NCBI RefSeq assembly: GCF_000003815.2 | Contig: NC_049979.1 | Coordinates: 14,293,307-14,357,306 of the forward strand | Reading direction: 5' to 3' | DNA: 64,000 bases | Source of the DNA: Branchiostoma floridae | Taxonomy: Eukaryota > Chordata > Leptocardii > Amphioxiformes > Branchiostomatidae | In this document: positions 1 to 32,000 of the stretch, piece by piece | Layout: each line of letters opens with the position of its first letter | Position numbering within the stretch: position 1 is the first letter of the stretch | Notes under the pieces: generated by a model | Told to the model about the DNA's origin: nothing | Seen by the model: the letters and a program-made list of their open reading frames with translations, nothing else | Databases searched by the model: none | Made by a program: the position numbers and the translations under genes

Positions 1-12016
<12,016 letters not shown>

Positions 12017-12948
12017 CAGTAGAGACACTTAGAACAGAAAGATAGACCACCAGATTGTTATGATAGTCTTAACAGCCAGAGAAGAAGATAACCTACAAGT
12101 AGCAATTGGCAGCAGTTATTAACGGAAAACTTGGGGAAATAGTATCCCAAAGTATCCAAACTTGTAGGACATCATTGAGACATGTGGGAGAGCCATCAGC
12201 CCTGGGTGATGCACATGTCTGGACCTGTTGTCAGGTGTAGAGTAACCTGCTGAATGGAACCGGCCAAGCAGCAGGAAGCAAGGTGGTACATCTACTCTGA
12301 AAGATGAAGCAACAAGTAGTTTTCGAAATTAGAGCTCAGCAGAAAGGACATCTTGGAATATTATATTTTTTATATTGCAACCTTCTGTAACCTACTGTAT
12401 ACTAATTAGGTATTATGCAGACCACATTGCTTAATTCCAGTGGCATTTTCTGTGTAGTGAAAAACACTTTCATTATTTGATGATTATTGCAACATTTCTA
12501 AATTCTGTCTTTGTTGAACTTGCATATTATTAAAGAAAAAGTCATCAGAACTTTTGTTGGATTTTTTCCTCTGTGATGTCTGCTTCCCATATATATGTAC
12601 ATGTATTAGTCCTGAGTTTTGAAACAGTTTTCTTCTTTGAAACCTCCTTGCACTGTGCTATGGTTTTCAGTGTCCTACTTTTTACTATCGCAACGTTACC
12701 CCACCTGGGATGGACGTGCTAAGCTGGAATAGCATGCAGATTCTCACATGATGACAAAGTCATTTAGGGTGGATGGGCAGCTTGGGATAATGTGTACAGT
12801 ATTTTCTCTATTAAAAGTACGCAACACCGTTTTAGGGCAGTCTAAAGGCAAATATACCTGGCTGAAACGTGAAAGGCAAAGTCTCATACAAAGTGCGCAC
12901 CCCTAAGTAGGGATCTTAATGAATGTACAATTGCTTTTTGATTAAAGA
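12017..12948 (+). other. ERCC2 3' UTR and intergenic sequence
   Basis: The stretch follows the ERCC2 stop codon. It probably holds the 3' UTR up to an ATTAAA signal near 12529. I see no coding exon, tandem repeat or inverted repeat in the remainder up to the U2-like RNA. Confidence 0.5.
12529..12534 (+). terminator. Candidate polyadenylation signal of ERCC2 (ATTAAA)
   Basis: ATTAAA lies about 510 bp after the ERCC2 stop and is followed by a T-rich run. It is the first reasonable signal that I see downstream of the last exon. No transcript evidence is available. Confidence 0.4.
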
Positions 12949-13136
12949 TGATGGGCCGTTCCCACCAGTACTGCAATGCTGGGCCAACCCAGACCAGGAC
13001 GGTGCAAGCACCTAGTCCATGGTCAGCAGCAAAAATCCGTGTGAAAAACGGTCCGCCGTAGCGAGACCCGTCAGTTTTCACACTGACGAGAACAGTCACT
13101 ACACACTGATCTTAGCCACGTGGGCCGAGAAGCGAT
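12949..13136 (-). ncRNA. Divergent U2 spliceosomal snRNA gene or variant
   Basis: Read on the minus strand from 13136, the sequence opens ATCGCTTCTCGGCC and continues GGCTAAGATCA, as in U2. It then has GTGTAGT (the branch-point pairing region, here GUAGUG instead of GUAGUA), CTGTTCT, the Sm-type site GGATTTTTG, the stem III core with GCTTGC, the loop IV core ATTGCAGTAC and finally GGAACGG. About 188 nt from first to last match equals the usual U2 length. Between these blocks the sequence differs widely from canonical U2, but stems remain pairable: IIa GUCAGU/ACUGAC, IIb GGUC-CGC/GCG-GACC closed by a UACG loop, and III GACCA-GGAC/GUCC-GGUC with GGUGC/GCACC. Canonical U2 is almost invariant in animals, so this is a variant paralogue or a structured pseudogene. 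The 3' end is approximate and no promoter element was recognised. Mentions of canonical U2 rest on general knowledge. Confidence 0.82.
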
Positions 13137-14151
13137 AACATTGCAACTCATTCCTTGAAGACAGGTTTGTCAGAGAGCTACTAACTGATTGTGGTATGAG
13201 TATCTGTACATTTTGCACTTCATGAGTATTTTAGAAGCCAAAATCGAAGGAAAGGCGGCCCACAAAAAAAGTGCCAATAACAAATAATTTATACCCGAAA
13301 GCGTTAAGACGCAATGATAGTCATTGTTATCGTCAGATCATAAAAATGTGTCTTTTTGCCGTAACTGCATTAAGAAACCCCGATATATCAAGCCGGACGT
13401 CAGATGCGCGTTGCATTAGCTGTGATCATGTACTGTACTGTGGAGTGTACGTCATTGCGATGTTGAGAACGTTCACTTAACGTGGGGCAACATTTGACAG
13501 AAACGACATCTATCGTCAAGCTACCTCACTGCAGGTAACAGGTGTCAACAACTGATCGTTCCTCACCACACCTGTAACGAACTAGTATTTGTGTGAAAAA
13601 AAGACAGATACCACAGTCTCGTCAGATCAGTACGAGAAGCCAACCGTGAATGTGCATATCTATTCATCGCAACACAATTGTTGAGCTGCAGTGAGAACCC
13701 AATGCATGATTCATGCAACATCTGACTTTCAATGTCATGGCGCTATCAAATGCCATTTGGACACTGGAACATTTCTTTGGACTTTGGTAGCCAATGACAC
13801 GTTACTCAGTATTAAACAAAATAGTAACAGCAACCGTTGAATTTACATGCTAACGTTAACGTTATGAAACTAACGTTATTTGTTGGGCAATGTTTTTTCT
13901 TAAAACATTGCTTAACTGTGCGTTAGACCTCAGCTCGAGTTATATCAACTTCGTTTTTTTCTTCCCCTTACTCAGTGGCAATGGACACCAATGCTTGACA
14001 GGGACGTTTCCTTTTTAAGAGGCAGCGCGGAAAATTTCAGCTAGTTGATGAGAAATTGCATCATCGACGTTGATCGATACCTTTATCTAGATTCACACGT
14101 AACATTACCAAGTTACGTGACCAGAAGGTCGTTGACCTTTGTAAATCCAAA
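13137..14151. other. Intergenic region between U2-like RNA and acyl-CoA oxidase
   Basis: The region should contain the upstream control sequence of the minus-strand U2-like RNA (just after 13136) and the promoter of the plus-strand acyl-CoA oxidase. AACGTT-rich tracts occur near 13850-13880. I see no coding exon, and no clear snRNA proximal element. Confidence 0.4.
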
Positions 14152-14160: not shown

Positions 14161-17100
14161 GACGTCGAGAAAATGAAACCTTCGCGATACATCGATGGGG
14201 AATATTGGGAACTGAAGGACAGTCTCAGGAGGGAAATTGAGCACAATGACTTGTTTACACAAAGGTGCGATAACCTGATTGTTGTCTTCTCATCTAATTC
14301 TGTCACGAGTACAAACGGCCCGTCCAGAAGACGGTATCTCTACTCGATGACCTTAACGTAAAAATAATATGTTCTGTACAGGTTTGACCTCCCAATGGAC
14401 GAGTTACGTGAAATCACACTCAAGAGAGCCAAGTTCCTCCTGTCTTTGCCACAATGTAGGCAACAGTTTGCCGACCAGGTAAGTAGGTTTTTGCGTAAGA
14501 AACTTAGAAAGTTCATTACAGTTCGAGCTCCAGGAAACTTTTGGCTTTTCGGACACATGAAACACAATTTCCCACATTTTGAGAGTCTTGATTATTGATA
14601 GGTCTGAAATAATGTTATTCCGGATTCCTAGTCAACATAACACAATGCGTCCTTATTCTCATCATTTCTCTGTACCTTACTTGACTTCTCTGTATCAGTG
14701 ACGTTATATAGTAACATTAACTGTTAACGTTACAATTTATTTTTCTCCAATCCAGCTGGCCAATAAGAAAGGCTTCATCAGCAGCAGCCTGGCTATAGGA
14801 GAAGTCTTCTCCTGTGTGGACATGTCTGTTGGAGTCAAGGTTTGTATTCCTGCTTTTTAGTACAATACTTCACATTTGGTTTATTTTGCTTCATGATCCC
14901 ATACACTTAGCAGTATTTGAAGGGACTATTAAATGTTACTTGGTGAAACATTGAAATAACTAACAAGATTGGCAATGATTATCACACCAATGTGTCAACT
15001 ACATGTAACATTATATGTACATGTATTTTCAATGATCCTATTAGTAAGATGATTCAATGTTCTTTCCTTAAGAACAATAGATAAGTAGTGCTGCCAGTAA
15101 TACAGATGCTTGTATTGTTTACAGATGGGAGTGATGGCCTGGCTGTTTGGAGGGGCAGTCATGAACCTGGGCTCACAACAACATGTGGTCAAGTGGTTCC
15201 AACCACTCAAGGTAAAAATGCTTATTCTCATTATCATTTTATGATCTTCCAAACTGAATTTGATTACATGATGGGGTAAAGCAAACTTACAAACGGAATA
15301 TTTAATCCAATTGTGACTTTACTTTCATCCTGCAGGATTTAGAATTCACAGGGATGTTTGCCATGTCAGAGAAGGGCCATGGGAGCAATGTGAGGAACAT
15401 CCTGACAGAGGCGCACTATGACAGTAAAACTCAGGTGAGATGTCAATGCAAACAAAGCTACAAACGATAGCAAACAGAGACTCCTGTCAATTGCCCACTT
15501 TGAAACAATCAAGTAATGACTTGAGCAATATAAAGTGGGCAATAAGGTCAGATACACATGTTACAGGATTCTACTTTTTAGTAATTTTAATTTTTTTATT
15601 TGAGACTTTTATGTGACTTTGTATGCTTGCCTGGAGGTGCCGTTGTACAATATGTTTTCCTGAACATTTTTCTTCTGTGCATGTGCTCTGTTTGTATGCA
15701 GTGTCATAAAATAAAGGGTTCAGGAAGTTGAAAGGGTAGGAATACAGTAAAGTCAAACACTGCATGCTACCCATATGTGTTTTTCCCTGCTTACAGGAGT
15801 TCATCATTACAACCCCATGTGAAGATGCCCAGAAGTTCTACATTGGGAATGCCCTCCAGGGGAACTATGCTGCTGTGTTTGCTCAGTTGATCATTGGACA
15901 GGAGTCCAAGGGTCAGCCTCTGTCTTGTCAAAACTATCACATAGCTAACAAGACTTTGTACTGTTTGCTACATTTGTTCATCTGGTGAAGTATAATGTGA
16001 ATGACCTATAATGTGAATGACCCATGGTATATACTGAATTTCTGATTGGAGTGTGGAGCTGCGAGTTTGATTTTATTTCCTGATTCCTGCGTGTTCATGT
16101 GTATTTTCAGGTCCCCACTGTTTCATAGTACCCATCAGAGATGCAGAGGGAAACCTGTACCCAGGAGTCAGTGTTACAGACATGGGTCTGAAGGAAGGTG
16201 TGTTTAGAAGTGATATTTTATGTGTTGTCTTGTACATGATCATATTTTCCTGTTCTCCAGTAAACTTATTTATCTATTATCATAACATTACATTTTGTGT
16301 TTGTAGAAAGAAATGTGTATCATGTGTGTTCCCAGGACTGAATGGAGTAGACAATGGCATCCTGCACTTCACTGGAGCAAGGACACCAAGAGAGAATCTT
16401 CTCAACAGGTCAGTTAGCTGATGACAGCAATATTGTCCAGGGAGAATATCAAATATGTATGCAACATTACAACTTAGTTGTGATATATTTCAACTCTGAT
16501 TCCAGCACAAGAGTGATAAATAATACAGGACAGTCTCCCATATTTGTTCATGACATGCCCTCCTCAGGTTTGCTGATGTGAGTGCAGAAGGAGTGTACAC
16601 CACTTCTATCCCCAGCCACAACGCCAGGTTCAATGCCATGTTAGCAGCACTGGTGGCAACACGGCTGGCACTCTCCAACCAAGCCACGGCTAGTATGAAG
16701 GTACACAGATTATGCAGTGTGCTGCCTATGCTGAGTTTGCTTGCACATCATTGTTTCAGTGTTGATTTTTTTCTTATTGTCAAATGTGCTGTTTGTGTCG
16801 ATGTTGTCAACTTGTGAATATATGTGCATTCTTCCATTATTTCTCCGTATCTTTCATAGGTTGCCTTGGAAATAGCCATCAGATATGCTTTCAAGTAAGT
16901 CTAGGATACTAGTATATTCCTGTATTCATTATGGTATATGAGTTCATGTCAATTAATCAGTTCCTCAATATTAGTTAAAGTTTAAGTTATCAATATGCAG
17001 AACCAAAAACTCAAAGGGATTTGTTTCTTTACTGGGTATAGATAAAATTGTATCAAGAACATTTTGCTTGTGCTCAGAATACTCCTATTCAATGATATGT

Positions 17101-20100
17101 ACTTGTTACACATTGCAGACGTGTCCAGTTTGGTCCGGGAGATGGCCCAGAGGTTCCCATCATGCATTACCAGACTCACCAGCTGCGACTCATGCCAAAC
17201 CTGGCCACCTGTCTGGCTGTCACGTTTGCCAACAGGTGCAGCAACTCTCTTTCTCTTCTTTCGTTGGTTGCCTCCTGTTTGATTGTTTACTTATCAATGT
17301 CTATGTACCTCATTTTTTACTATTTGAAACACGTATGGTTACAACATAATCTTGTATGAATCACAAGCACTTTGCTACCCTGGTAAATTAGAAGACCCAT
17401 CAATGTGACATTTTCTATCACAAGTATTTTAAGCTTGCAGACTCCTTTTCAGGAATTCATCTAACACAACCAAATTTGATTAGGTGAATACTTTGTGCTT
17501 TTCAGGTATGCAGCGGACATGCTTGATGATGATTTCTTCTACAAGCGAGACTTGGTAGATGACAGGGCCATCCAGGCCCTCGCCTCTGGTCTCAAGGCTT
17601 ACGCCACCTGGGAGAATCTGCAGTGTTTACAGACCTGCCGGGAATGCTGTGGAGGAATGGTGAGAAGGAGACTATGACGTTTTGTCAATAAAAATAAAAA
17701 ATACTATAATCCTAAGCAATGCATTGACTTAAATGCACATACATGTATATGCAAAAATATACGTAAGGAGACCCACCAATATTCTAGTATTTCATACCTT
17801 AAAGTGTAAAAGAGTATGTTTGAAAAACCACAGTGTATCTTCTGTTATGCTCCCATTTCACACCTGTTTCACTTCTTGAAGGGTTACATGACTGAGAATC
17901 GGCTTGCAGGTTTGAAGCAGGACTGTGATGTGTTTGTGACATTTGAAGGTGACAACACTGTTCTGTACCAGGTAACAAGACAACTTGTGCCATTGAAATT
18001 AAAAATTATGTAGCAAGGAAAACAAGATAATACCTGATGTAACAAATGATATGGGTTTTGCATTGACTTTTCTGAATTGACGTTTCCTTCGGTCATTGCC
18101 ATATGCTAAAACTTGTAAATCACACTTCATGTCTTACCTTTAACTTGTAGCAAGTGGTGAAGGAACTGCTGGCAGTGTTTGGACAGAAGCTGGGAGATAA
18201 TCGTGTACTGCAGACCTTGTCAGTTCTACAACAGGAGACAGCTGAGTACATTAAAACAAGGTCAGCTCTAGACCTGATACGTGGAGTTAGAATTCTACGT
18301 AAAACCAGCTGGGTAAATTTGATGACAAGAACAAAGAGATGTGTGATTATGCTATACAAATACTAATTTTTTTATCAAACAGTCAGGAGTAAACAGTGGT
18401 ACTACATGTATTGGTTTGTCTCCTGCAGCATGTTTGCAGTAGGCACAGAGTCAGTGACGAGTGCCATGGGGATGATGAAGGCCCTGTCCTTTAGAGAAGG
18501 GAGGATGCTGAGGAAGCTGGCTGGGAGGATGCTAAAGAAGGTATCATGTGTAGAGTTACAAATGAAGAGAATATCATGACACAAATTTGTTAGCGATTTT
18601 GAGTTTGCAGTGACCATGGACAAAAAACTAAATGCATTTCAGTATCGCCCTCTGCTTTGCTCCCTGTTCAGTCTTCATTCTATGGGAAATGTAAAGAGTG
18701 CATCACAGGAAAACCCTGGTAAATATTTTTTGTTTTTACAATATAAGTTATGTTAGCCTTTGCTGTATATCTAACTGTAACAAGACTGTTTTTTATGTTT
18801 CTAGGTTGGAGATGGAGAAGAGGCATTCCAAGCCTGGAACTCCTGTCTTGACCACACACAGGCGCTGGCCAAATGTCACATACAGCGAGGTAAAAACTTG
18901 AAGCATCACTTGTACATTGGTACATCTTTTACTCAGTCAGTATTGTAAATTATACATCATTTGGNNNNNNNNNNNNNNNNNNNNNNNNNNNNNNNNNNNN
19001 NNNNNNNNNNNNNNNNNNNNNNNNNNNNNNNNNNNNNNNNNNNNNNNNNNNNNNNNNNNNNNNNNNNNNNNNNNNNNNNNNNNNNNNNNNNNNNNNNNNN
19101 NNNNNNNNNNNNNNNNNNNNNNNNNNNNNNNNNNNNNNNNNNNNNNNNNNNNNNNNNNNNNNNNNNNNNNNNNNNNNNNNNNNNNNNNNNNNNNNNNNNN
19201 NNNNNNNNNNNNNNNNNNNNNNNNNNNNNNNNNNNNNNNNNNNNNNNNNNNNNNNNNNNNNNNNNNNNNNNNNNNNNNNNNNNNNNNNNNNNNNNNNNNN
19301 NNNNNNNNNNNNNNNNNNNNNNNNNNNNNNNNNNNNNNNNNNNNNNNNNNNNNNNNNNNNNNNNNNNNNNNNNNNNNNNNNNNNNNNNNNNNNNNNNNNN
19401 NNNNNNNNNNNNNNNNNNNNNNNNNNNNNNNNNNNNNNNNNNNNNNNNNGATATGCCTGGTCGATAGGATATTCGGTATGATATTCCATCATCATGTATT
19501 CCAGTTCATTCATCAATGTTGATATATGAATAATGATTGAATTGAGTATACCGGTAACTTCTGAGTGTTGTGCCTTGTGCTTGCTGAGACCAGTTGTACA
19601 TATGAAGGCCTTCCTGGTAACCTCCTCGCTGTACTAGTACAGTGGTGACTGAACTGCATGTTTGTTCTCAGTCTGCCTGGAACAGTTTGTGGCTGCTGTG
19701 GACAGATGCCCCTATCAACAGGAGAAGGACATCCTAAACAAGGTGGGTGGATTATTTCTCATGTGTGGCAGTATCATTGGTACATAGAGTAAGTCATACC
19801 CTGCAAACTCCATTTTATAGATTACATGACCTTTATAGATATCTCAAACCTGATGCAAAAGAGGGCAAAAACTTTGCATTTGTTTTGCCAGAGGCACTTA
19901 GTACAAATGTAATTAAGACACGAGCTTCTTTTTACATTGACTATGTTCCATATCCCTGTCCTGCTGCAGTTCTGCCTGTTGTATGGGACTCATGCCCTGT
20001 ACACAGACCGTGCCTGGTACCTGGAGCATGGGTACTACACACCTGCCAACACTAAGGAACTCAGACAACAGGTGGGACAGCTCAGCTGAAACATCTGGAT

Positions 20101-23013: not shown

Positions 23014-26000
23014 TCATCTAGCAGCTGGTCTGATGACTTTAGCCCCCTTGCTCTTGAACACAAACATGCAGGGTTTTCCTTCTGCTGCAAGCTGTGCTCG
23101 CACTGACTGGGGGAAGGCATTGTCTGGTATCTGGGTCTCTGTAACAATACATCAAAGCCGAGTGTTAATCATGTTGGCTTAATGGTTTGGATTTGTAGGT
23201 ACATTTGAATCTTCATTTTCTCAAAACCCCAATTAGTAACAAAGTACAATAATTAACACACTAAAAATATAAATGGCAAAATAAAGTACGAGTGCACAAT
23301 TTACTTTAGTGATACTAGTGCTTAAAACTGCATTAATAAGACGAAGGGTGTTATGTCGTACATTTGCTGTAATGTATCAACAAAGGAGGGATATTGAATG
23401 GTTGTGACTTGCCTTCTCCTTTTACGACTTGCACCAGTTTGAAGTTATCTGCATTTGCCAGCTTAAACTTATGGCTGATCATGGAACCTGCAGAGCAAAA
23501 AAGGAACAACAGTCATTCACAACAGCAATCACACCAGAAGATTTCAAACATTGGAAATAAACATTTGAGCAAAACACGGTTTCTATCATATCTTGAAAGT
23601 AAGCACATTAGTATGAACTTACAGACTTCCTTGGCAGTCATGTCCTGCCGAACAGGCAGCGTCTTGTTCACGATGGTGCCGTGGTTGTGGTTGAAGATGG
23701 CAATCTTCATGAACCCCTGCACATCACTCACACTGGGCACTCTCTACAACACATGGAGAACACAACAGTCTTAACCAATCCACAGATGTTGCATCAAATT
23801 AGGGACAAAAAAAAAACTGAAAAAATGCCCTCTTTTTCCACTGAATTCCACACAATGGTTCAGACGTGACCTACCTCCCTGCTACTGGTGGTTGGTTCAG
23901 TGTTCTCCAGGTTCTTGAGCACATGGATGGCACTACTGAGGGTGGTGAGGTAGTACCCCCCCTCCCCGTTCACCAGGTGTGGGTTCAGCAGGCTCCACAT
24001 GTACTCTGCCTCTATCTCCGCATGGATCAGGTTACAGTGGGCCAGTACATAGATGAAGACAGGGAGGAAATCTGCAAAAAACACCAATTCAGAACATCAT
24101 TAGGATTCTATGGGACTCAAAACTTAACATGTTCTGCTGGACCTGGTCACCAGTGCCCAAGATTGCAGAAGTAACAGCATAAGAAGGGAGGGAACATTTT
24201 GAGCAATTTTCAAAAGCATGAGTGAAGAGAACCTCCACTCACCATCAGCTCCCATAGACAGTGTGCTGCTCTCCTTGCTGCTGGTATCCTTTACACTGTT
24301 GTATATGGATGACACGGCAGCCAGGAGATACTCCAGCTTCTTGGGTGGGGAGTGCTCCTGCTCCATACAGTGGAGGAAATCTCGGATCACATCCAGACTG
24401 GAGCCAGTGGGGGGAACAATGCTGGCCTGTCAAACAGAAGAAATAAGGTCAATATATGAAACAATAAGCCTCTGATTATATTTAGCCAAATTTAAAGCAC
24501 AACCTGAACTAAAAAGGAGAGATTCTTCCCTTAGATCAAGAGAATCATGAACTTCAGGAAGGCAAATTCAAATATCTACCTTAAGAAATCAAGTTACAGG
24601 ATTGGGAATATTGTTCCCTACCTTAACTCCAAGTTCCTCAGGTGTTTGTCGTCTGGCAGCCTTCATGTTTCTTGTGAGAGTGTCCAGATCCCCTGACCTG
24701 GTGTATTGCTGGATGTAACACTTGTATATGTGCAACCTGAGATGTTTCAGTACACACTCAAACAGGGCACCTTCAATGATGGTGTCCAGAGGCAGGGGGT
24801 TCCTACGGTCATGCTGCAATAAAGCAATTATAGATCTTAATAGGCCATACAATGTGCTGTAATTGTACTAAGGAAAGATAACTTGTGTTCAAATTTACCA
24901 AAACTAACTTAAGATGACAACATGGCCGTACCTTCTGCTGTTCCTTGTGTATGAGTTCGTCCAGGTTGGCCTCCCCCTGGGTCAGCAGGAAGTTCTTCAT
25001 CCCACTCATGAACTGTCGCACCTATCCAGGGGACACAAGTCATGTCAAACTTTAGTACTAAGTCATAACTAGAATAAACATGAGAAGTACTCATGAGAAG
25101 GAAAGAATTAACAGAGAGCAGCTACTCACAGCTCATGATTGTCCCCTGCATCCTCTCGTTAGTCAGTCAGACTGAATCAGAGAATGACTTCAGGTGTATC
25201 TGAGCCTGACCACCCCCATATAGCCTCACTTGGTAGCTCCCAAAGTTGAAAGGTCACGGGTTACCCATGATTCCTCGCCGCGCATGCGCATCAGTCTAAT
25301 TTTTTGAGCGATACTGAAAACACCCCCTGTAGTTTCCAGCTCCGGTTTTGGGGTCCCAGCGCGTTTTTTGGGACCCGGACACGACTTTCTTCGAAGACTT
25401 CGGCGGCTCGGCGATTTTCTACGGGCGGCGCAGGAGTTTTTAGCGGCTTTTGCAGCGACGGGGGCCGCAAGAGCTCCGAACAAGTTCGTCAACATGTGCG
25501 CCGAGGGTCGGCGCCATTACTATCGTCAGTCTTCAACGTCGACTTCTACGCCAGTTTGGGCGTTTTGGGTGCTCTTTCGGGGGTACTCAAGCGATGGAGT
25601 TCGAGGTCTCTCGTTCGGGAAGGTTGTCGAGCTTGCTCCGACCGCGAACCGAGAAGGGTGGCGCCAAGAAGAAGTTGAGAAGTTGGCGCCAAGAACGAAG
25701 AAGAAGGTGGCGACATCGCTATCGGCGGCCACAAAGAAGATGAAGACGACAGGGCTGGCGTCAGCGAAGTTTCACCGGCTGCTAGCAGCGATGTACGTAT
25801 TTTTCTGTATTTATTTCAGAAACGCTGGTGGCTTTTCAAGATAGTTGAGGACGCAGTTTTGTCAACCTATGCCGGGATCCGGCGTGCTCCGTCTCCATTG
25901 GGTGCCGTTCCAGAGAAGCAACGGCGACGTGACGTGGCTGTCCACAACTTGCGACGAGACTACTACGACGAGACAGCAGGAGCGTTAGCGGCTGCTGGGA

Positions 26001-29000
26001 CGACAGTGTCTTCGCGGGTGCAGCTAGGCCCGATGAAGAAGTCAGTCAGGCACCTTGTGTTGCTGACGACTTGGTGGTTGAAGAGAAGATGTCCTTTGAA
26101 CACGACAAGCCCTGTCGTGGCAACGACTTGGAGACTTCACAACAGCTCGCCGAACAACGCTTGTCCACGTTGGCGGTGCTGACTTCAACTACACAGCATC
26201 AAGAGCGGTAGTCAGCTGCTTTTACATGAAGCAGGGTGAGCTCTTTGTTCTCACATTTATGTTTCAATGTACTTGTACAATGTTTCAATTTTTTAGTGGC
26301 AGGTTGGAAAACCTTTTGTTTAACAAAATAATGAATTAACCTAGGCAGTTAATTCAGTTGTGGTAGTTTTTTGAACAACTACAGTTTTCAGTGTTGTACT
26401 TTTGAACAACTATGTTTGTTATGTATGATTGCTAGGACAGTTCTTACTTCCTAGGCTCAGTTCTTGCCCAACTGTCTTGCACATGTGGGTTTTATGTGAG
26501 TTTTTCCCAGGGTGTTTGGGATTTTTTTCTTAGATCCTATGTTCCCTCGATCTGGGATAAAGGTCGTCGACTTGGCCTCAGAGACTAGGCCCATTCCGGA
26601 ATGTTGACAAGCATCTAACAAGTCAACAGCTAGACGCAGATGTGGTTACAGCATCGGCCACATGTCGTCGAGCAGAGACGCTCTACTACAACTACTTGCA
26701 GGGGCCAAGCTACTGTCTGGGTGGTTCTCGTCAGTACTGCACAGCAGTCTTTCTCAACTCTTCAGCAGTGAGGTCGGACAATTAGCTGACGCATCTCCGA
26801 CAAGAGAGACACTTAGGTGTTCAACCATCCATCAACCTGTACTCTACAGTATGCGGCTTCTGCGCAGGGGCAGACTAGTCCACTTCCTACGGCGGTGGCG
26901 GCAGGCGTCTGTAGATCCCAGGACCCTACAGTGTGTGAAGGGGTACAAGTGGGAGCAGTTCGCCACAAGACGGTGTGGCTTCTTCTTTCCTTCCACAGGT
27001 TACCCCACACGAGTGTGGTAGGTAAGAACTTGCTTACCAGGGGTGTGATGGAACTACTTCCGTATCACCCGTTTACTTTTTCTTGCCTTTTAGACAAGTT
27101 TTTTCTACAGGTTCGTCTTTAGGATGCCAAGTTGGGTGTTCCTGAACACCTCATCCAGCCGGGAGGCTAAGTGGGGAAGGTCATCAGAAGGATGCTTCTT
27201 CACATCCCAGACGTAGAGAACCGGCATCGCTGGGGGTTCCAGCGGGCGTTTCTTCCGGCTCGTTGTCTCCTTATTGGAGTCCCAACGACGCACAGCCTTC
27301 AGTTTTGAAGGTGTTCATCCCTGAACTGAGTGGATGTTGGTCCTGGTCTGGAGGGCTACATGGACGATGGCAACTGTTGACAACTAGGGTCTGGAGCTGC
27401 TCTCACCTTGGTTCTTCCCGAGCAGAGACAGCGCAGATCATCTTATCGTCTTTCTGGACGACAACTGTTGACAACTACAGTCAACAGCTGCTCTCAACCC
27501 AGGTTTCATCCCGAGCAGAGTCAACGCAGCTTTTCCCTAGAGTCGGCTTGACTCTATGCTGAGGGGAACTTGGTCTCTGACTACAAGGTGCTGGAGTCGC
27601 AGCATCTAGCAGACAACTTTCTGTCTTCAGACAGAATCATCTTGGCAGAGAAGTTGGCAGCTTGACGGGCAGAGCACAAGCCACAACAGTGTCAGTTGGC
27701 ACACAACTCTCATCTCTGCACTTCAAAAGTCTTCAGGTGTCTGCTCATCGCAGTTCCTCAAGTGACAAGAGGAACTCAGCTTCTTGGGCTGCCGTCAGAT
27801 GCAGCTCAGATACGCTGAAGTCTGGTGAAGACATCAGTTGTACAGTCACGTCTAGAGTGCAGCCCTCGGCAGTTCAACAGCATTCCCACAGGAAGACACT
27901 GGTCTGTAGAAGAGAGGTCGGCACACAGCAATCGGGACGGCAGGACACCTCATCAGTCCTTGGTTTCTACAAGGAGATGGTGAGCGGACACAGTCTGCTC
28001 CTACAACTCAACAGTGATGGCTCAACTGAATCATCCAGGAGGTGCAAGATCACGGTTTTGCTAAGGGTGATCTTCGACCTGTGGCAGTGGTACACAGACA
28101 GAGATGGTCTGTATCAGCACAGCACTCCCCAGATGGGGATATGTGTGACAGGACGTCGGCTCCCGGCATTACCTGTAGCCACGACTTGGACTCTAGATCG
28201 ACATACGTTCTTGAGTCTTCAGGCGACATTTCCACTACTCTTAAGGGGGTGGATATGTTCGGATCCTGAACAACTCCAGCTACCACTGTAGGTTGACTCT
28301 GGACCGGCTAACGTCTAGAGTTTTCAGAGTCCTTTTCTACTCGGTTGGAAGGTGGATCGGTTCACACTCCGATCAAGCCAACAACTGCAAATGGAACGAC
28401 TGAAGGCAGATGTCTGCCTTCTGCCCATTCTTCTGATTGTTTCGACAATCTGGGAGATACAACAGGATGAGGTTCACCTACTTCTCATCACTCCAGATGA
28501 GACACAGCAGTCTACTACTCACACCTGCTGGAGATGTAAGCCGAAGAACCAGTTCTGCTACTCCTTCACATCTACTGTCTACTATCTTGAGTGTGACTCA
28601 CTCAGAGGTAGAGTGGCTTCAACAAGCTGCACAGCATGTTGCCGGTGACAGTACAGTCAGTACAGACTTGTGCCAGTACTACGCAGTTTCCTGAGGGCGT
28701 ACTGGGGTTTTTGGAATACAGATTCAGTATTCCTCAACTTGTTACAACTTGAGTAGCTGGTGCAGTCAGGAGGACTAGGGTCCCTGCATCTCTAACACAC
28801 TGCTGGTTTTTCTTACAGTTCTTGTGTGGGAAGTTCTACGGTCAGGACCTTGTTCTATACAGATCTACAGATCTTCAATCTACAACGCAGAAGGTCAGCC
28901 TTTAGGAACACTCCTGCTGGTAAGGCGTTTCTTATGAGAGACGGCCAGCTTTACCTAAGTATGTTTCACATGGAACATTGGTAAAGTTTTCTAATAATGG

Positions 29001-32000
29001 TTTTTTTCCAGTGAGATCCTGTCACTTCAGCTTGTTCATTAATCATTATTTTTACTTGGCAGTAAGAGTTCCATCTCTTCCTTCTTGGAGGTCAAGTACA
29101 AGAAGAGTTTCTTGACGGATTCAGTGTCACCTTTCAATAAGTTGTTATGGTTCCATGGTAAGGTATGGTGGCACATGTTGTGTTTGCCAAGTTTTTGCCG
29201 TGGGGTAGGAGAATTCTCCAGTCCCCTCTATGGAAAGTCTAGGTGTCAACAACATCAGTCACGGTTTATGTCAGGATTGTTTGTGTGTGCTGGTTGGAGC
29301 CACATCAGGCCGTGACTCCTGCAACCTCTGTGGTATGATTTATCTCTGTTTCTACAGGAGCCAACCTTGGTCATACCCAGTTCCTGGACTCTCCACAAGA
29401 AGTGCTTCTGTGGTTGCTGCGGCAAAAGAAGAGGGGGGGGGGCTCGTTTGAGTCAACCATCTGGTCTCCCTCTGCTTATTTGTGAATACAGAAGTCATGT
29501 GATATCTTATTTCATGTGATATCTTATTTCACGTGATATCATATTTCATGTGATATCTTACATCTGTCATGTAATTTCTTCATGTGATATCTTATATTCA
29601 TGTGACATCTTCATGTGATATCCATGTGATATCTTATATTCATGTACTGGTCTTATGTCCTGGCCTCAGGCTACAAAGTCACCTGAAGTCATTCTCTGAT
29701 TCAGTCTGACTGACTAACGAGAGGATGCAGGGGACAATTAGAAATTGTACTAACCTGTGCAGGACAGGTATAATTGTCCCTGCATCCCTCGTTGTCAGGC
29801 AGACTCCCTCCCTGGCAGGTAAGGAATTTTTCTTGTTCCTGTGAAGTCCCTCCCGAGACTACTTCGGCCAGGAGTTCTACAAACAGTAGACTGATGCGCA
29901 TGCGCGGCGAGGAATCATGGGTAACCCGTGACCTTTCAACTTTGGGAGCTACCAAGTGAGGCTATATGGGGGTGGTCAGGCTCAGATACACCGGAAGTCA
30001 TTCTCTGATTCAGTCTGCCTGACAACGAGGGATGCAGGGACAATTATACCTGTCCTGCACAGGTTAGTACAATTTCTAATTTTAAATCAAAACATGATGA
30101 CTTACCAAATAACCATATCTCAGTCACAATGGTCACAGTAACTTAAACGTGAGTAGCACAATCATAAGCTTACATTTCTGATGACTACAGCAGGGTTGGT
30201 CTCAGCACTCTCCTGGGTACACTGGATGAAGTTGTCTATGGTCAGACCAAACGTGCTGTTCTTATTAGCAGCAAGCCTGCAGACATGCAACAACAAAAAT
30301 GCATTAAAATGGTACATTGTACATATAATTTCTTTATCTAGTTTGTAGTACATCTCCAATAAAGTCTGTACTCGCTAATTATGAAAACACAATGATCTGT
30401 TGTAAAAGTATTGCAGATATCAGCTTCTTTTTTTTTCATTAGCACTTCAAGACAGGAACACAAAAAAATCATCTTCAAAGTTCTTTTACGATAAAGCAAA
30501 GCAAAGCAAATGCAGATAACAGCAATAACAACAACTTACTTGATTATGTGCTCCTGTATTTTTGTAGTGGAATCTCTACTTGGTTTTCTCTTCAAATTCA
30601 GGGCAGATGCTGTATAAAAATTACAAAACATTAACATCATCATGATTAAACCTGCAGACCTTAATTATACAATTAACAGCACTCCTTGTCAATATCAAAT
30701 ATCCAGTACTACTTTTGCCATCCTTCAGAAACTTAACTACTGAATGGTTTCTAAGAAAAGTGGCAGATCAGGTGAACAAGGTAAGTTTGTTTGTTATACC
30801 TTTGATTTGCTTAAAGGCAGCATTGCCTTTGTTCCGAAGCTTCTTGGTGGGCAGGATTGTTCTGCTGGTCCTCCTGCGTCCATCAAACACGTCATCATCC
30901 GTCTCATCACTGCTGCCCTCAGGCTGGGATGGAATAAAATCAGGACATGTCATACACTGGAAATGGATGAATATAAAATATCTATATATTCTTAGGTCAA
31001 AAGATATACATTAGACATGTGTCTCTCTCTCTTTCCCTCTCTCTCTTTCAATCAGTAGTGAAATAATGTACATTGCAAGCTATGAAAAGTCAGGTTATGC
31101 AACATTAGGAAACAAAATTGCAAAGACATTATCAGGATAGTCATTATAGGCAATCACAGACAGCAAAAATAACAGAGCTTCTACCAGTCCATGCATGGGA
31201 CAAATCATTTCAGTAGCAGTGAACACAAACTTGCAGATAGCTTTACACACCTGAGTTGGGATGTGACCATTTCCTGGGCTGACCTCCTCAATTTCTGCAT
31301 ACCCGGAGGATGACATCTGGCTCCTCTTCCCGTGTGTGGAGGGTTGGTTTCCCTGGCTGTCCAGCAGCCTGGGGTAGAACGTCTGCACCTTCCCTCCATC
31401 AGACGTCTCTGACAGCATGGACCTGTTCTGTATGGACTGGTTGAGCACAGTGTCTTGTGTTCTATGGAAGGTTGCTGGTGACACTCCCAACCCCTGTCGT
31501 GGAGAGTCCTCCAGACTGCCCATCTCTGGGATGGACACAAGAGGATCAAACTCTGACCACTGGTTGGATAGGGAGCTGTGAGTTCTCTGTGTCTCCCCGT
31601 AGGACCCTGATGATGGGGTTGAGCTGGTCTGAGTCTCTTCTCCGTCGATAGATTCCACCGACAGTCCTACCCCAGGATCGCTCGTCTCCTGTTCTATACT
31701 GTTCACAAATAGTTTCTTCTTTGGTTTGGAGTAGTCGATGAGTTCTCCCTCCTGGTCAGACAGTGCATGAGGAGGAGTCTTGTAGCCGGAGTCCCTGTCA
31801 GCCTTGGTAACAGACAGGTTNNNNNNNNNNNNNNNNNNNNNNNNNNNNNNNNNNNNNNNNNNNNNNNNNNNNNNNNNNNNNNNNNNNNNNNNNNNNNNNN
31901 NNNNNNNNNNNNNNNNNNNNCTCCTCCTGGCAAACTGGGAGGAGCGGGGAGAGACACAGAGGAGTCACTTCTGTCTGTATCGTGGTGATGAGAAGTTGAC

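Follow-up and report, generated by a model that had tools for sequence, protein, structure and literature searches.

A strongly diverged U2 snRNA locus in amphioxus, with compensated stems and snRNA-type flanking signals

We analysed a U2-like locus, L021, on the reverse strand of a 64,000-nucleotide stretch of Branchiostoma floridae DNA (hereafter the window; all positions in Table 1 count from its first base). L021 is probably a functional, strongly diverged U2 snRNA gene, and perhaps a specialised one. The preliminary description had held that the locus is not a dead pseudogene, a view well supported by a PSE-type promoter site, a 3′ box, the joint change of stems IIa and IIc, and the comparison with a decayed sibling locus, L032.

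Identification of L021 and its U2 landmarks

The covariance-model check that had been proposed for the locus placed L021 in the Rfam U2 family (RF00004) on the minus strand with 117.6 bits against a cut-off of 46 (E 3.6e-23), and the match covered positions 1–192 of 192, i.e., the full model. When the 64-kb window was scanned with all Rfam families, none besides U2 was found at or above its cut-off; the same scan gave no U12 snRNA match at the cut-offs. The resemblance of L021 to U2 is far beyond chance, and chance resemblance was ruled out by the Rfam score together with the pairing simulations given below.

All of the U2 landmarks that had been claimed for the locus over about 188 nt are present and in the right order in the alignment. 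Bases 1–14 and GGCUAAGAUC are exactly those of the two normal U2 types of this genome (types A and B, below); the U6-pairing stretches of U2 we take to be the 5′ end and GCU/AUC. The branch region reads GUGUAGUG, the Sm-type site is placed between IIb and III as in U2, loop III contains CUUGC, and loop IV contains AUUGCAGUAC. L021 matches 61 of the 72 strongly conserved (upper-case) columns of the Rfam consensus and 60 of the remaining 120, and the 11 strongly conserved columns that differ include those of the branch-point hexamer and the IIa loop. Relative to the normal U2 of the genome, L021 carries two insertions of a single base: the first is in loop I, and the second precedes the branch-point hexamer, within the linker that joins the hexamer to the U6-pairing part. 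The single extra nucleotide of the preliminary description corresponds to the base before the hexamer, and the insertion in loop I has to be added to it.

Table 1 Features of the L021 locus and its neighbourhood in the window.
Feature	Position	Strand	Remarks
U2 snRNA body	12946..13136	-	Rfam U2 117.6 bits and alignment to the genome's own U2 genes; 188-191 nt
5′ end, AUCGCUUCUCGGCC			landmark of U2
Branch-interacting stem-loop CAGUGUGUAGUGACUG	13093..13108	-	alignment, pair count, folding; hexamer GUAGUG at 13097-13102
Stem IIa, CGUCAG-UGUGAAAA-CUGACG	13069..13088	-	two double compensatory changes
Stem IIb, UACG tetraloop and bulged U	13050..13068	-	pair count, folding
IIc 3′ strand UUUUCACACGG, partner CAGUGUGAAAA	13037..13047	-	four double compensatory changes vs type A, one broken pair
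Sm-type site AUUUUUG	13030..13036	-	alignment; same in types A and B
Stem-loop III	12992..13024	-	two double compensatory changes in lower stem; top exactly as in type A
Stem-loop IV, loop AUUGCAGUAC	12953..12990	-	one double change, one broken pair
PSE-like promoter site ACCACAATCAGT	13184..13195	-	-59 to -48 from RNA start; score 8.9
3′ box TTTAATCAAAAAGCAA	12931..12946	-	score 11.3
XPD helicase HBB domain frame	1382-1642	+	28.2 bits vs cut-off 30
XPD helicase HBB domain frame	2062-2445	+	over cut-off
hAT transposase-like frame, 836 aa open	7486-9996	+	DUF4371, hAT dimerisation
Acyl-CoA oxidase domain frame	17096-17356	+	

U2 genes of the genome

The genome (513 Mb, 431 contigs) contains at least 30 U2 hits at E 0.001, a lower bound given that 46 of 19,867 first-look candidates were scored. 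The count of canonical U2 copies suggested in the preliminary description came to at least 13 normal hits of two types. Type A (L001–L003; 196.9 bits) is dispersed over contigs C3, C8, and C9 with identical RNA and different flanks, and type B forms a tandem array on C11 with two further copies on C362 (L004–L012 with 188.9 bits and L013 with 181.1 bits). L021 apart, the remaining 16 hits range from 159.9 down to 37.8 bits, and those inspected are shortened or rearranged. Shortened U2 copies also sit alongside type B in the tandem array.

Types A and B are 84.4% identical to each other, whereas L021 is 73.0% identical to type A and 67.5% to type B. L021 probably derives from an A-like gene, because the top of its stem III, GGUGCUUGCACC, is shared with type A. 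In its length, the order of its stems, its Sm site, U6-pairing stretches, loop IV, PSE, and 3′ box, L021 is the same as the normal U2 of both types. It is unlike them in its two insertions, the hexamer GUAGUG, a better-paired branch stem-loop, new sequence in IIa and IIc, and the UACG loop of IIb. A DNA search for other diverged U2 copies with window positions 12500–13700 returned, among the best candidates scored, L032, the three type A genes, and L021 itself.

Compensatory changes in the stems

For type A and L021, nine helices with 52 pairs were chosen and written by hand, without counting the G bulge in the branch stem-loop or the U bulge in IIb; since IIa and IIc share bases, the counts are partly dependent. 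With stems IIa, IIb, III, and IV and the IIa/IIc alternative, 50 of the 52 pairs form in L021. Compared with type A, 36 pairs are unchanged, 11 have changed on both sides and still pair, three pair after a change on one side only (in one case, an A-C mismatch of type A became G-C), and two are broken, one in IIc (A-U to A-G) and the other at the top of IV (G-C to G-G). The pair count against type A confirmed the earlier claim that IIa, IIb, and III are restored by matching changes on both sides, and the UACG tetraloop reported for IIb was recovered as a C(UACG)G loop with an additional bulged U. As a yardstick, type A against type B showed 10 double changes, one single change, and no newly broken pair. 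When the changed positions were held fixed and their target bases drawn at random, 9.9 pairs were broken on average, and two or fewer in one of 20,000 simulations; with random positions, none of 20,000 runs had as few broken pairs as L021.

IIa and IIc of U2 are described in passages of PMC8516221 as mutually exclusive, with IIa giving way to IIc in the catalytically activated spliceosome. In L021, the IIa strand and loop CAGUGUGAAAA pair with UUUUCACACGG, directly before the Sm site, and the IIa loop and its IIc partner have co-changed. Both alternatives are predicted to be stronger in L021 than in type A, the IIa hairpin at -9.5 against -4.6 kcal/mol and the IIc duplex of proper partners at -10.6 against -7.0 kcal/mol (type B, -9.1 kcal/mol), whereas the duplexes of crossed L021 and type A strands reach -0.8 and 0.3 kcal/mol. 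At its lowest energy (-16.0 kcal/mol), the stem-loop IV segment folds into the normal outer shape. When the whole RNA was folded without constraints, z was -3.26, with 2 of 200 shuffles equally good; this fold holds IIa and IIb without the overall U2 arrangement and was not counted as support.

These matched changes bear on the possibility that L021 is transcribed but unstable and plays no role in splicing, either as a target of the nuclear exosome, like some human U1 variants, or as a decoy. According to parts of PMC7328512, some human U1 variants are indeed transcribed, poorly matured, and degraded; four that were tested stood at about 0.01–0.1% of normal U1, and three of them were exosome targets. 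However, neutral survival of such an RNA gives no reason to expect that the branch stem-loop, IIa, IIb, IIc, and III would change in matched pairs, and we consider this fate of a U2 variant quite improbable for L021.

Branch-interacting stem-loop

Alignment to the normal U2 of the genome bore out that the branch-point hexamer reads GUAGUG in L021 instead of GUAGUA, with GUAGU retained. This counts against L021 being a normal U2, not against its being a U2 snRNA, and by base pairing GUAGUG could still possibly engage YUNAY branch sites. In our alignment, an A-C mismatch and a G-U pair in the branch stem of normal U2 correspond to G-C and U-A in L021, and the L021 stem-loop also has a bulged G and a U-G pair. 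Folded alone, the branch segment of L021 reached -3.1 kcal/mol, whereas that of normal U2 had no predicted fold.

For human U2, passages of PMC13167188 place G33–U37 in the loop of the branch stem-loop and a U27:U43 pair at the stem end, and give the human branch consensus as YUNAY. By our extension of that numbering, the changed base of the L021 hexamer may face intron position -5, outside YUNAY; a change in specificity is possible because YUNAY does not cover this position. Judged from pairing, the hexamer change A to G and the change U to A of the next base would favour C or U at intron position -5 and U at -6. The better-paired stem-loop of L021 is also similar to the idealised stem with canonical pairing that was modelled in this 2026 simulation study (PMC13167188), and the natural sequence of L021 could serve to test the idea that branch-site invasion is driven by a strained loop.

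The preliminary description had suggested that L021 could prefer altered branch sites or act in a tissue- or stage-specific spliceosome; both suggestions are conjectural. A fuller proposal is that of a second, functionally distinct U2 particle, which would hold the branch hexamer in a well-paired stem-loop, have one more base separating the branch helix from the U6-pairing part, prefer UCACUAAC branch sites over AUACUAAC, and serve a particular intron set or stage. We regard this proposal in its entirety as doubtful.

Promoter element and 3′ box

A 12-base PSE motif of (A/G)CCAC(A/G) type was derived from the upstream regions of 25 non-redundant genes, L021 excluded, taken from 10 of the 23 U1 hits, 4 of the 30 U2 hits, and 11 of the 16 U5 hits. 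The best site lies at -56 to -59 in 23 of these 25 genes, and the CCACA of the PSE-like site of L021 lies at -58. A score of at least 8.9 occurred at 62 of 41,691 position-restricted places in the window (0.0015) and in 198 of 17,821 whole 40-base segments (0.011). An earlier 18-base matrix built from 14 U1 and U2 genes gave L021 only 3.0, a value reached at 2063 of 124,997 positions. Outside the training set, the motif was found at -57 to -59 in nine of ten U4 hits above 100 bits, two of them with ACCACAATCACA, and was absent at that place in three weak U4 hits.

The score of the L021 3′ box was equalled in 83 of 34,380 window segments, with the scan begun 8 bases before the Rfam end and a null of the same length (a start past the Rfam end gave -8.0). 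The box matrix is less well suited to U4 than to U1, U2, and U5, with only two of ten strong U4 hits reaching 11.3; one U4 gene has the 3′ box ACTAATCAAAAAGTAA. With L021's own scores as thresholds, 51 PSE-like hits were found on both strands of the window, of which only L021 then has such a 3′ box at the right distance. Among the 30 U2 hits of the genome, both signals (PSE of at least 5.5 at -60 to -55 and box of at least 11) occurred together in 14, namely the 13 of types A and B plus L021, and in none of the 16 others, two of which have N in a flank. By its flanking signals L021 is thus laid out as a Pol II snRNA gene, with a PSE about 57 bases upstream and a 3′ box just downstream, the signal being weaker with the first matrix. 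More generally, most of the strong U1, U2, U4, and U5 hits scanned share two elements, a PSE with the pattern (A/G)CCAC(A/G) near -57 and a 3′ box with the pattern AA(T/A)C(C/T)AAA.

An ordinary retro-pseudogene or a chance resemblance is an extremely improbable account of L021. The genome does contain shortened and rearranged U2 copies, but neither a PSE at -58 nor a 3′ box is expected in a retro-copy, and these two signals led us to reject that origin; the matched changes and a score of 117.6 bits over the full length also speak against it. By eye, no poly(A) tail and no target-site duplications were seen at L021. The marks of a U2 pseudogene, a lost promoter or body and decayed pairing, are not found in L021, in contrast to L032 and the shortened copies.

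As a functional U2 gene, L021 would probably use its own PSE-type promoter for transcription by RNA polymerase II, its transcript would end at the 3′ box, and the RNA would be assembled with Sm proteins into a U2-type particle. The U6-pairing, Sm, and loop IV stretches, through which U2 joins the normal spliceosome, match those of normal U2, and we infer that L021 RNA would join it too. The better-paired branch stem-loop, GUAGUG, and the extra base may then alter the way in which branch sites are engaged or the set of introns on which this happens.

Comparison with the decayed sibling L032

L032 is located at C1:15583790-15583903, 1.28 Mb from L021 on the same contig, and is 82% identical to it over 114 bases, with no flank similarity between the two beyond the RNA body. 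Missing from L032 is the stretch that starts at the end of loop I, spans the branch region, and reaches into IIa; the Sm site is changed to ATTGTTG, and 4 of the 24 pairs with both arms left are broken, in IIb, the top of III, and the top of IV. No 3′ box was found at L032 (-14.2), and its PSE-like site, ATCACAAGCGGT, is out of place at -65 with a score of 4.5 (best other, -2.8 at -55; 12-base motif). Because L032 keeps such a site, a promoter remnant alone is no proof of function.

Much of the divergence from type A is common to L021 and L032 and therefore predates their split. With type A as the outgroup and gapped columns excluded, 17 changes since the split are private to L032 and four to L021, with five unresolved (P = 0.007), a distribution expected if L032 died and L021 stayed under selection. 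A long-working U2 variant that lost its function or expression only lately could look similar. The four private changes of L021, its two broken helix pairs, and the finding of no close copy apart from its dead sibling would accord with such recent silencing. On the other hand, the PSE, 3′ box, Sm site, and main contact stretches are intact, and in resolved columns L021 has changed about one quarter as much as L032 since the split, so that we judge a recent loss unlikely and favour a gene that still functions.

Comparison with known variant snRNAs

U2 is among the most conserved RNAs. If L021 works, it would amount to an experiment of nature on the freedom of the different parts of U2 to change, with about one quarter of its bases changed and nearly all pairings kept, including the IIa/IIc switch; expression that depends on stage or tissue would make it a clear candidate for a specialised spliceosome.

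The human U2 paralogue RNU2-2 (U2-2) was annotated as a pseudogene until it was shown to be highly expressed, and is now tied to disease, according to passages of PMC12165836. In the same passages it stands, like L021, apart from a multicopy repeat (RNU2-1), from which it differs at eight nucleotides, whereas L021 differs from normal U2 at about one quarter of positions and has a changed branch hexamer. Developmentally regulated U2 isoforms, expressed by stage, are noted for Drosophila, silk moth, sea urchin, and Dictyostelium in parts of PMC4291461; as in those species, several versions of U2 occur in one amphioxus genome. Human variant U1 snRNAs, for which a role in iPS cells was reported in 2026 (excerpts of PMC13172311), are likewise diverged snRNA paralogues. 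They are variants of U1, not U2; those tested were poorly matured (parts of PMC7328512). Among the matches listed in our literature search, outside which most subscription papers lay, there was no report of an amphioxus U2 variant.

Other snRNA-like loci and genomic neighbourhood

Inspection of the weak hits of U1, U4, and U5 revealed no partner set that would make up a parallel set of diverged snRNAs. The weak U4-like locus L086 (C17:12798466-12798623; 48.4 bits) shows neither a PSE at the usual place nor a 3′ box, and the weak U1-like locus L057 (C8:14790189-14790371; 57.2 bits) has a 3′ box scoring 11.3 and a best PSE of 1.8 at -53.

L021, on the strand opposite to the XPD-like and acyl-CoA-oxidase-like frames and situated between them, is apparently intergenic. 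A 46-bp tandem array (2570-3397) directly follows the XPD-like exon, and the N-terminal part of the hAT-like frame is built of in-frame 36-bp repeats. Positions 25138-30081 contain inverted repeats with arms of 143, 70, and 59 nt that are 97–100% complementary, two of the three pairs being about 4.5 kb apart; these are possibly a fold-back mobile element.
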